From Acidiphilium sp. 37-60-79 (GTDB lineage Bacteria > Pseudomonadota > Alphaproteobacteria > Acetobacterales > Acetobacteraceae): DNA of 64,000 nucleotides. The position numbers were made by a program, and so were the translations under genes. Shown here one piece after another: positions 50,624 through 55,136 of this stretch; position 1 is the stretch's first letter; each line of letters opens with the position of its first letter. Location of the stretch: NCBI GenBank assembly GCA_002279355.1, contig NCBV01000003.1, forward strand, positions 1 to 64,000, written 5' to 3'. The notes below the pieces were generated by a model. It was not told the origin of the DNA, did no database searches, and saw only the letters and a list, made by a program, of their open reading frames with translations.

Positions 50624-51835
50624 TCAGGCGGCACGACGGATCGACAGTTCGCGCCAGATGGTGGCGAGAGAGTCGACCAGATGGTCCATATCGGCATCGC
50701 TATGCAAGGGTGACGGGGTTAGCCGCAGGCGCTCAGTGCCGCGCGGCACCGTCGGGTAGTTGATTGGCTGGACGTAAACGCCGAACCGTTCTAACAGCGT
50801 GTCGCTGATCTCTTTACATAGGGCCGCGTCCCATACCATGACGGGAACGATGTGGCTTGGGTTATGCAGGTGAGGGACGTCCGCTTGGTCCAACTTGGCG
50901 CGCAGCCGGGCCACGCGCTCATGCATGCGGGTGCGTTCGGCATCGCTTGATTTCAAATGGCGGATGCTCGCAATGGCGCCGGCAGCGACGGTGGGCGGCA
51001 GCGCTGTGGTGAAGATAAAGCCTGACGCGTAAGAGCGGACAAAATCGCACAGCGCGTGCGATCCGGTGATATAGCCACCGATGACGCCGAAGCCCTTGGC
51101 GAGCGTACCTTCGATTACACTGATGCGATGGGCGAGACCGTCACGCTCGGATATGCCGCCACCGTGCGGACCGTATAATCCCACTGCGTGAACCTCATCG
51201 AGATAAGTCATGGCACCGAAACGATCGGCAACATCGCAAATGGCTTCAATCGGTGCGACATCGCCATCCATCGAATAAACGCTCTCGAACGCGACGAGTT
51301 TGGGACGCGCCGGATCGATTGCGGCTAGTTTGCGGGCGAGATCGGACGGGTCGTTATGCTCAAACACCACGCATTCGGCCCGACTATGGCGGATGCCTTC
51401 GATCATTGACGCATGGTTCAGCGCATCCGACACGACAACGCATTGCGGCATTTTAGCGGCCAGGGTGCAGAGTGACGCCCAGTTCGACATATAGCCCGAA
51501 TTGAACAGCAGCGCTGAGTCTTTGCCGTGCAGGCCAGCGAGTTCGTGTTCCAACACCGTATGAAAGTGATTGGTGCCTGCGATATTGCGCGTACCACCGG
51601 CTCCTGCCCCGCACCGATCCAGCGCCTCATGCATGGCCGCGAGGACAGTTGGATGTTGGCCCATGCCCAGATAATCGTTCGAGCACCAGACTGTCACTTG
51701 CCGTTCGCCGCCGGCGCCATATTGGGTGGCGTGGGGGAAGTTGCCAGCATGGCGCTCAATATCGGCAAATACCCGGTAACGACCTTCCCGGCGCAATTGA
51801 TCGAGTTGAGCGGTGAAAAAGTTTTCGTAATTCAT
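50624..51835 (-). CDS. hemA: 5-aminolevulinate synthase
   Basis: A PLP enzyme joining glycine and succinyl-CoA to 5-aminolevulinate, the first step of haem and bacteriochlorophyll synthesis in Alphaproteobacteria. The 403-residue protein has [10 protein letters not shown] near residue 53, [17 protein letters not shown] near 211 and the PLP lysine Lys247 in GTLAKGFG. The start at 51835 gives the family N-terminus MNYENFF. It is the last gene of the photosynthesis operon, 26 bases after puhE, its usual position. Confidence 0.97.
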
Positions 51836-51861
51836 CGGACGCACTCTCCCGGTTAAGTCGG

Positions 51862-53706
51862 TTATTCGGCGGCTAGGCGTAAGGCGCACCCGGCGAATGC
51901 CAGGGACAGCCCGGCTTCATCCAAATTACGCCCGATCGCGATCACCCGAGGTTGCTCGCCATCGGGAGCGGCAAAAGCGGCAACGCTGGCGCGATGCCCG
52001 GCGACGTCAAACTGCACCCAGCCACGCCCCGAACGGGCGAGCCCTTTGAGACGGGCGATTGTGCCGAAATGCCCTTCGGCGGCAGCATCGAGCACACGGC
52101 GTAACGCATCGAGATCGCAAATTGTATCGAGTGTGCCTGCCCATGAAGCGAAGCCCAGAGCGTCCTCATGCGCATGATCGTGAGCGTGATCATGGTTGTG
52201 GTGATGATCGGGATGGGTGCAGGTGACATCGATGCATCCATCATCGTCATGCTCGTGCTCGTGCGCGTGCGCGTGCTCGTGCGCGTGCTCATGACCATGT
52301 TCTTGCGCCTCTTGCGCCTGTGACGCCGGCGAGGGTTGAGCTGTTCCGCCCGCAAAAATCTCGGCCGGAACCGATCCGTAGCGTGCTGCGATGATGCGGG
52401 CTGCGGGGTTGAGGCGGCTCAAGGTCGCCTCGACGGCCCGGCGCTCGGCCAGGCTCACCAAATCTGTCTTGTTGATCACGATCACACCGGCGAGCCGTGC
52501 CTGGGCAGTGAAATGTGCCTGCATCTCCGCATAGTCACCTAAAAAAGCCCCCGCATCGATCATGGTAATGACCGACAGGCTGCGCTTGAACGGCGCGATT
52601 TGTGGACGTTCTAACACGCCGATCAGTGACGCAAGATCGGCCACGCCAGACGGTTCGATCAACACCCGATCCGGCGCATAGCGGCCAACGACCTCTTCGA
52701 GCTGACTCGCGAGATCATTTTTGAGCGTGCAGCAAATGCAACCGTTGGGCAGTTCGACCACATCAGCGCCCTGGCCACGAAGCAGCGATCCATCGATGCC
52801 GACGGAGCTAAAATCATTGACCAAGACGACAGTTTTTTCGCGCTTCTCGGCAGGAACGGCGCCGAGCATGTCGAGACGGCGGCGCATGAAGGTCGTTTTG
52901 CCCGCTCCAAGAAAGCCCGCGATGATTTCGACATCGAACGCACGCACAGGCTTACGGGATTTAAGGCCCCAGCTCCAAAGTTTAGCCGCCGGCAACGGCA
53001 CCACCAGGAACCAATGTTCGAGAATGGCCAACGCCATCATCACACCGATGAACGTGTCACCGGCGCGCGCAAAGCTGGTCGTGGCGGTGGCCGCATGCTC
53101 AAACATGATCGTGCCGATCACGGTGGAGACGGTGATCGAGATTGGGAATAATAGGTTCATCGGCTCGCGACGCAGGAAGCTTTTCAGAAAGTTCAGATGT
53201 TCCGGCAAAAATTCTTCATTCAGATTGCGCACGCCGAGAAACACATTGAGCTTGGCGCTTTGATGCATCCACCAGAGCACCATGAAGGTCCAAACACCGA
53301 TTTGATTGGGTTGGCCCCATGTGAGCGCGATGATGAGCGCGGCCGAGATGATGATCGCGAGTTCATGCCAGAGGCTCGTCTGGATCGCATGGCCGAAATG
53401 TTTCCAGCCGCGGCAATTTTCGGGGCAGGCATCCTGCCGGGGGCCGGTGACAAAGCCCATATAGAAGCTAATTTCCTGCCAACCCCAGGCGAATAATCCA
53501 AATCCGAACGCCCAATAGGCCGCACTCACAGTTGTCTCACCACTGACCCGCACGAGCCCGATCACGCAAATGGCAAAGACGGCACTGGCGCCGAGCATGC
53601 TCCATTTGAAGGTGGGGCGCGGCAAGCCATCGAGAAAAATGATGGCACCGGTGCTGAACCACCAAACGAACAAGGCAAACAGGCCTGGAATGATGTAACT
53701 GCTCAT
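51862..53706 (-). CDS. puhE: PuhE photosynthetic assembly protein fused to a CobW-type metallochaperone GTPase
   Basis: One uninterrupted 614-residue frame joins two proteins. Residues 1-250 are PuhE (DUF3623), with about seven membrane helices starting [18 protein letters not shown], known as a helper of reaction-centre and pigment-complex assembly. Residues from about 258 form a complete COG0523/CobW GTPase. Walker [10 protein letters not shown] is at 264-272, the metal motif GCICCTL at 322-328 and the guanine motif NKTD at 412-415. A metal-binding loop at 470-513 holds 18 His in HX repeats and two Cys (CIDVTC), and a CobW C-terminal domain ends the protein. PuhE proteins are normally about 270 residues. 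The gene lies between acsF and hemA, the standard puhE position. The GTPase would face the cytoplasm next to the membrane; metal delivery is inferred. Confidence 0.93.
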
Positions 53707-53729: not shown

Positions 53730-54821
53730 TTACCAGGTCGGCTGAAGGCGAATTTCCGCAGGCAGCGGATGCGATTTTGTGCGCATAAAATAGAGACGCC
53801 CAAATGCGAGAGCGGCTTGAGCGGCGTGACTAACACGTTTGAGCTTTGCCCCGAGACCCGTTTGATCGCGGAGCGCTAAGTTTGCGACGTCGATTTTGCG
53901 CAAGCGCTCAAGCCCTTCGAGGAATTTCGGATTCTCCAGATCGAGCGTCACAGGAAAAACCTGTTCGCTGATCGCTGAGGTGATGCGGAACACCTGCATG
54001 TCATAGTCCGTGGGATCGAGGCCGAGTGCTGCGTGGAAATGCGGCCGAGCATGGTCACGCACATACATGGTGGCAAACACCGCAAGTTGGAAAAACCGCA
54101 CCCAGAGCCGGTTAGTGCCCTTCAGCATCCACGGATTGGCCCGCATGAGCAGCGCGAAGGCTTCACCGTGACGAAATTCATCATTGCACCATTCCCGGAA
54201 CCATTTGAAAATTGGATGAATGCGCAATTCGGGGTGCTTTTCCAGCTGGCGATAAATCGAAATATAGCGGGCGTAGCCGATTTTTTCGGAAAGATAGGTC
54301 GCATAGAAAATGAATTTCGGTTTGAAGAAATGGTATTTTTTCGCACGGGTGAGGAATCCCAAATCGACCTTCATATTCAAATCATGGAGCGCCTCATTGA
54401 TGAAACCGGCGTGACGCGCTTCATCGCGGCTCATATAACCGAACAGGGCTTTCAAATCGGGGTTTTGCACGCGCTTTTTGATCTCGGCATAGAGCACGCA
54501 GCCGGAGAATTCGGCGGTGACGGAACTGACCAAGAAATCGAGAAATTCCCGGCGTAATTCGGCTGGCATGCTGGAAATATCAACCGCGAATTCATCGGTG
54601 CGGGCGAAGTGACCTTTGTTCGGGTCCGCGCGAAACTCCTCCATCAGCGCGTCCCATTGGGCGCGAATTGGTTCCACATTGATATTGTTCAACGCCTCGA
54701 AATCGGTGGTGTAAAAGCGCGGGCTGAGCATAGTGCTCGCTTGCGCCGAGGCCGTCTGTTCGTTGGGGGCAGCGTGATCATGCGCGGTGTTGACGGCATG
54801 AATCGGGCTAACAGCGTTCAT
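53730..54821 (-). CDS. acsF: Aerobic magnesium-protoporphyrin IX monomethyl ester cyclase
   Basis: The oxygen-dependent cyclase forms the fifth ring of bacteriochlorophyll. The 363-residue protein has the diiron ligand motifs of the family, [14 protein letters not shown] and DEARH in the first half and [10 protein letters not shown] after them. An N-terminal tail of about 30 residues, rich in His and Ala ([16 protein letters not shown]), is poorly conserved. Its presence shows the ring is made with oxygen, fitting an aerobic phototroph. It starts 3 bases after orf103 and ends 23 bases before puhE. Confidence 0.96.
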
Positions 54822-54824
54822 GGC

Positions 54825-55136
54825 TCAGGCTCCGATATGCGAGAGGGAGGGTTGAATATCGGCCAGTGGTTGGAAGCCGACTTCATAGAGTTCGGATATC
54901 TCGACGATGGAGCTTACGCGGGTCCAGAGCCGCGCGAGCAGGCCAGCGCGGATCAGCACACCAGGGCGCTCGCAAATGACATGCTCACCGAACAGGATTT
55001 CGTAGGGTGCATCGAGCACCATCACCACATCGCCTGCGCGGATCTCGACATTTTCGGGGATCGCGTGCGCGTGGAAGCTGGCGGGCGTTTGCTCGATATC
55101 AATGGAGCAACGGAGCGGAATATGTTCGCCAGCCAT
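54825..55136 (-). CDS. Small conserved-looking protein between puhC and acsF
   Basis: A 103-residue soluble protein (MAGEHIPLRCSIDIEQTPAS...) with mixed beta strands such as AGDVVMVLDAPYEILFGEHV and a helix ending SSIVEISELYEVGFQP. No known domain or enzyme motif is visible. Its stop is 3 bases before acsF and its ATG overlaps the puhC stop by one base, so it is coupled to both. Many photosynthesis clusters carry a small gene of this kind at this place, so a role in assembly or the cyclase step is likely but unproven. Confidence 0.8.
   Translation of the reverse strand: MAGEHIPLRCSIDIEQTPASFHAHAIPENVEIRAGDVVMVLDAPYEILFGEHVICERPGVLIRAGLLARLWTRVSSIVEISELYEVGFQPLADIQPSLSHIGA

Follow-up and report, generated by a model that had tools for sequence, protein, structure and literature searches.

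A COG0523 GTPase fused to the photosynthesis protein PuhE in dozens of species: a candidate metallochaperone for its own membrane partner

In the photosynthesis operon of Acidiphilium sp. 37-60-79, the reading frame of PuhE, a protein kept beside acsF in purple bacteria and long without a known mechanism, continues into a COG0523 GTPase. The locus raises the question of whether such a fusion is genuine and, if so, on what the attached GTPase might act. The window, which is the whole stretch of DNA that was analysed, comprises 64,000 nucleotides, and within it the fused gene and its parts are located as follows.

51862..53706 (-): puhE-cobW fusion gene, 614 aa, stop codon included, ATG start; a single open frame, supported by Pfam and NCBIfam
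52951..53706 (-): PuhE/DUF3623 membrane domain with seven helices, residues 1-252; Pfam and AlphaFold2 helices, mostly pLDDT 70-97
52351..52935 (-): G3E/COG0523 GTPase domain, residues ~258-452; Pfam cobW, AlphaFold2 (mostly pLDDT 84-96) and Foldseek
52894..52917 (-): P-loop GFLGAGKT, residues 264-271; GxGAGKT core in 30/30 aligned fused proteins
52729..52740 (-): CxCC metal motif C323-I-C325-C326, present in 25/30 aligned fused proteins
52462..52473 (-): NKTD guanine-specificity motif; NKxD in all aligned fused proteins
52150..52350 (-): His-rich loop with 18 His and 2 Cys, predicted to be disordered (pLDDT <50 at 455-514)
51886..52149 (-): CobW C-terminal domain (CobW_C), residues 520-607; Pfam PF07683, AlphaFold2 mostly pLDDT 89-96

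An earlier sequence-only reading had described one stop-free frame joining PuhE to a COG0523 GTPase with an intact CxCC motif, a loop of 18 histidines and two cysteines and a CobW C-terminal domain, and each of these elements was confirmed. Pfam assigns residues 1-252 to DUF3623 (E 1.7e-110; 368.7 bits vs a cut-off of 27), residues 259-439 to cobW (E 2.1e-41) and residues 520-607 to CobW_C (E 9.9e-9), all three scoring over their cut-offs, while NCBIfam places the protein in the PuhE family (TIGR03055) with 329.7 bits, the curated cut-off being 164. The PuhE and GTPase parts are separated by a linker of only ~5-8 residues, and the His-rich loop connects the GTPase core to CobW_C. All hallmarks of the COG0523/G3E family are found in the fusion, namely the P-loop, NKxD, the cobW domain, a CxCC between the switch regions, and CobW_C. 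In the AlphaFold2 model (mean pLDDT 79, with a disordered loop at 455-514), the GTPase and C-terminal domain together match E. coli YjiA best in Foldseek searches (4ixn, 4ixm, 1nij), whereas Foldseek/PDB and VIA searches gave no clear match to PuhE alone among solved structures. DUF3623 has been reported as a seven-helix family and was removed from the acyltransferase clan (PMC12423673).

A frameshift or assembly artefact near position 52953 can be ruled out, as the junction is continuous, in the identical frame, in dozens of independently sequenced genomes, and the GTPase part of CxCC-bearing copies shows pairwise dN/dS values of about 0.05-0.15. The PuhE-COG0523 fusion is real, ancient and common to dozens of species. 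In Jiella pelagia (L077) the fused gene is frameshifted, probably owing to sequence error, since bchH and puhA are each split at the same locus as well.

PuhE is encoded in 95 of 299 genomes of the family to which the source genome belongs, and a GTPase is attached to 58 of the 183 distinct PuhE domains collected; several puhE genes with ends cut by contigs were set aside. The fusion occurs in Acetobacteraceae, in the Aurantimonas/Jiella/Fulvimarina group, and in Lichenibacterium, Roseospira and Caenispirillum, named carriers being Acidiphilium rubrum, Acidocella MAGs, Lichenicoccus roseus, Lichenibacterium minor, Aurantimonas, Jiella, Fulvimarina, Pararhizobium mangrovi, Caenispirillum salinarum and Roseospira. 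When the class (385 genomes) and the phylum (299) were sampled evenly, PuhE proved mostly unfused, so that the fusion is a feature of a clade, neither universal nor a one-off. None of the plasmid records searched has it. One assembly (G128, contigs C3 and C182) encodes PuhE twice, in copies that differ from each other and are both unfused.

In the tree, the fused GTPases group together as a single clade (support 99), separate from 47 standalone COG0523 proteins, and on these sequences the fused GTPase has one origin. Three reduced states are found. In Roseospira, in L066/L070 and in L183 the CxCC is gone while the P-loop and NKxD are kept. In ten Acetobacteraceae loci (L165, L168, L170, L172, L175, L178, L179, L187, L203, L204) the GTPase is gone and CobW_C is joined straight to PuhE; every such tail hits all 52 CobW_C domains of the fused proteins (best 53-90 bits), while standalone ones reach at most 20 bits, which indicates that the tails descend from the same fusion. 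In the third state nothing remains, or only a decayed tail, as in Pelagibius (L079/L080) and in L189. On a tree of seven proteins (FastTree, midpoint root) the GTPase must have been lost at least 5 or 6 times and the CxCC three times; all trees are quick or FastTree reconstructions, and many loci stem from MAGs. We interpret the direction as loss rather than stepwise gain, because CobW_C normally accompanies its GTPase. Copies without CxCC evolve faster, under relaxed but still purifying selection (dN/dS 0.15-0.47), and as three lineages dropped the CxCC yet kept both the GTPase and the PuhE ligands described below, thiol metal binding is not required in every case. The His-rich loop is nearly absent in L055, L057 and L061. 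CobW_C-only tails are likewise under purifying selection (dN/dS 0.07-0.42), which makes it possible that CobW_C works by itself as a partner-binding domain. The alternative cyclase BchE was rejected as a simple correlate of the fusion, as it gave no clean pattern (7/26 fused, 5/6 CxCC-less, 5/10 CobW_C-only and 10/26 unfused).

The fused gene lies where PuhE is expected, in the context puhABC-acsF-puhE-hemA, and the full order is bchH-bchL-bchM-lhaA-puhA-puhB-puhC-bciE-acsF-[puhE-cobW]-hemA, with bciE named by position only. The closest neighbours are these:

54825..55136 (-): 103-aa ORF at the position of bciE (AcsF accessory), conserved across clusters
53730..54821 (-): acsF, oxygen-dependent Mg-protoporphyrin ester cyclase (diiron), directly upstream of the fusion; TIGR02029, 480 bits; a possible client
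50624..51889 (-): hemA, 5-aminolevulinate synthase, downstream, with a listed start that overlaps the fusion gene; aminotransferase I/II domain; the name follows cluster homology, in line with the annotated plasmid record H2

The order puhBC-bciE-acsF-puhE has been described (PMC10576062). The downstream neighbours hemA and bchI-bchD occur after puhE whether or not it is fused. A role of the GTPase as replacement for BciE was rejected, as a bciE-like ORF exists in both fused and unfused clusters, and no standalone COG0523 gene that might take the place of the fused GTPase was seen near unfused puhE, COG0523 genes as such being present in all but one of the genomes searched, fused or not. A second fused copy in G053 (L046, contig C107) lies outside the photosynthesis cluster and adjoins an SNF2 helicase gene.

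A search for positions that vary with the GTPase covered 3521 alignment columns from ten cluster proteins, and the 12 columns most strongly associated with it all lie in PuhE, including W146, H148, Y82, H103, S194, H106 and E96, with C98 close behind. Several of these belong to a set of potential metal ligands, given here with the conserved acidic and histidine residues of PuhE.

53473..53475 (-): E78, invariant in all PuhE
53413..53427 (-): C94-x3-C98, a motif of the TM3-TM4 loop, which is predicted to be cytoplasmic; all fused proteins have it
53389..53400 (-): H103 and H106, in every fused protein; most unfused PuhE have Arg at 103
53362..53367 (-): H114-E115; E115 invariant, H114 nearly invariant in all PuhE
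53263..53265 (-): H148 in TM5, shared by all fused proteins; mostly Arg in unfused PuhE
53014..53019 (-): E230-H231, invariant in all PuhE

The complete set C94/C98/H103/H106/H148 is present in 58 of 58 fused PuhE, and none of the 106 PuhE without the full set is fused; three fused sequences found later all carry it. The reverse does not apply, as 19 unfused PuhE also have the set. The stronger association seen in a first scan was weakened once new genomes showed unfused PuhE that keep the set, and on the tree, where the set changed independently only 4 times and the GTPase 7 times, the association is not significant because these changes are few; what stands instead is a one-way rule without exception. 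The C94/C98 pair is missing from all ten CobW_C-only proteins. Some unfused Rhizobiaceae-type PuhE (L317-L322) retain the full set, several with short His-rich tails (RHDGGHRHGH, RHEHTKHQHTH). Most PuhE without the set have Arg at both 103 and 148, so that most sequences fall into two types, with either His or Arg at both sites (53398-53400 and 53263-53265), and this shared state suggests that the two sites touch. From the seven predicted helices, the helix ends and the cytoplasmic C-terminal GTPase, the set and the universal E78, H114, E115, E230 and H231 are predicted to lie together on the cytoplasmic half of PuhE. The evolutionary rate of the GTPase, expressed as a residual correlation, follows its own PuhE domain (0.41) and neither AcsF (0.03) nor BchH (-0.15); a similar value for BchL (0.45) is without explanation. 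In mirror-tree comparisons AcsF and BchH gave no signal as partners.

Of the possible explanations we favour, at somewhat less than an even chance, a chaperone that acts in cis on the cytoplasmic-face ligand cluster of PuhE itself. A G3E/COG0523 GTPase, joined once to PuhE, would thereafter have worked on PuhE in cis. Upon GTP binding, a divalent metal with a preference for thiols, most likely zinc or ferrous iron, would be bound at the CxCC site of the GTPase, which the His-rich loop would supply; CobW, for comparison, binds metal far tighter in its GTP form, via a thiol site that includes CxCC (PMC7689651). GTP hydrolysis would then pass the metal, or a nucleotide-dependent change of shape, to C94, C98, H103, H106 and H148 beside the universal E78, H114, E115, E230 and H231, and the outcome would be a tuned modulation by PuhE of bacteriochlorophyll supply at the acsF/hemA step. 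In favour of this model we count the 58 fused PuhE sequences, their monophyly, the purifying selection, the YjiA-like fold, the ligand rule, the rate residual with PuhE and the gene of a ZIP-family metal transporter ~50 bases downstream of one fused gene (L076:1466-2315, in a Thiodictyon-labelled MAG). Against it stand the association that is not significant, the 19 unfused PuhE with the set, the losses of CxCC and the near absence of the His loop in three loci.

The main rival, which we consider unlikely but serious, is that the tethered metallochaperone supplies iron to AcsF or guards its diiron site. The acsF gene directly precedes puhE, and the fate of the CxCC fits to a degree: it is kept in nearly all fused genomes with AcsF, it is lost from all fusions of the three Roseospira genomes searched, from which AcsF is missing, and no acsF lies beside two more CxCC-less Rhodospirillales copies (L333, L334). 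Loss of the CxCC is also commoner where BchE is present (5/6 vs 7/26, raw p 0.018, uncorrected for kinship), and Nha3, which activates an iron nitrile hydratase, offers a precedent (PMC7689651). However, L066/L070 and L183 are without CxCC though acsF is present, acsF adjoins unfused puhE too, where AcsF manages without a fused GTPase, and the rates of AcsF and the GTPase show no excess correlation. Scarcely credible, by contrast, is delivery of a metal to the Mg chelatase BchHID, or of zinc for Zn-bacteriochlorophyll. CobW serves the homologous CobNST (PMC7689651), Acidiphilium makes Zn-bacteriochlorophyll (PMC12654162), the operon is shared with bchH, and in L045, L055 and L057 bchI-bchD come next after the fusion. 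Yet bchH and bchI-bchD are found near unfused puhE as well, and the rate residual of BchH gives no sign of an excess correlation with the GTPase, so that BchHID as a client, one of the proposals of the sequence-only reading, was not borne out. A thiol CxCC site suits Co, Zn or Fe and not Mg. The same reading had linked the fusion to zinc pigments and called for a comparison with pigment type. Glu at PufL L168, which we take to be the marker of a Zn-type reaction centre, occurs in only 7 of the 31 fused genomes checked (five Acidiphilium-type and two Acidocella-like), the other 24 having His, and a restriction of the fusion to Zn-bacteriochlorophyll genomes is thereby rejected. Of the membrane-tethered metal chaperone that had been proposed, a COG0523 protein with intact metal motif, under purifying selection in a bacteriochlorophyll/reaction-centre operon, has stood, while the versions with the chelatase and the zinc pigment are disfavoured. 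As an observation apart, Glu-L168 is found in the source genome as well as in Acidocella-like MAGs (G000:C38 (L302), G023, G283), which suggests that the Zn-type reaction centre extends beyond Acidiphilium.

The remaining alternatives concern the GTPase and PuhE themselves. The GTPase could be a nucleotide switch that regulates PuhE, for which metal binding would be a dispensable input, either accessory or sensory, and CxCC-less lineages do keep the P-loop, EPxG and NKxD under purifying selection; we nevertheless hold this to be distinctly unlikely, as the CxCC and the His-rich loop are present in the large majority of fused proteins and copies without CxCC evolve faster. A neutral relic, retained for a time and decaying with no specific role, would account for the repeated losses of the GTPase, the decayed tails in L079/L080/L189 and the CobW_C-only remnants, but is very improbable given the low dN/dS (0.05-0.15) over deep divergences and the strict conservation of motifs. 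FeoB, a GTPase-gated metal transporter, provides a loose analogy for a further reading, to which we give little credence, in which PuhE would be a conduit for a divalent metal, gated by the GTPase. A GTPase on a polytopic membrane protein with conserved Glu, His and Cys, and the ZIP gene beside one copy, would agree with it; the absence of a clear PuhE match among solved structures, and of the extra ligands and the GTPase from most PuhE, does not.

Returning to the chaperone acting in cis, a wider reading, which is rather doubtful in our judgement, would make PuhE of this clade a membrane metalloprotein or metal conduit with its own GTP-driven metallochaperone, whose metal loading licenses or tunes bacteriochlorophyll and reaction-centre assembly. 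The fusion points to a step in assembling the photosynthetic apparatus that involves a metal and has gone undescribed, and if the wider reading were true, the loading of PuhE would constitute a metal-dependent checkpoint of anoxygenic photosynthesis, likewise undescribed. The literature searched, which left out most subscription papers, held no mention of a PuhE-COG0523 fusion and no tested function for any fused protein. The fusion, with the split between His-type and Arg-type PuhE that tracks it, yields a concrete and mutable hypothesis, namely a role of PuhE in metal handling. To COG0523 it contributes a subfamily whose partner is built in, which helps to ask what these GTPases serve.

Among known systems, E. 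coli YjiA (COG0523; PDB 1NIJ, 4IXM, 4IXN) is the best PDB sequence match to the fusion GTPase (E 1.4e-15), and resembles it as a G3E GTPase with CxCC and CobW_C, but YjiA is a soluble, single protein, whereas the fusion has seven membrane helices, a His-rich loop and a place in a photosynthesis operon. CobW and ZigA share the order GTPase-CobW_C and the CxCC and provide the metal-chaperone precedent, although the fusion GTPase scores well below the equivalog cut-offs of CobW proper (TIGR02475; 120 of 332 bits) and ZigA (NF038288; 98 of 600 bits) and belongs to a clade separate from the standalone COG0523 proteins sampled. Nha3, the activator of Fe nitrile hydratase, is likewise a COG0523 protein dedicated to one metalloprotein (PMC7689651), but is unfused, soluble and part of a different pathway. 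With the PuhE of other purple bacteria (TIGR03055) the fusion has in common DUF3623, the place after acsF and E78/H114/E115/E230/H231, while those proteins are without a GTPase and most have Arg instead of His at 103 and 148.
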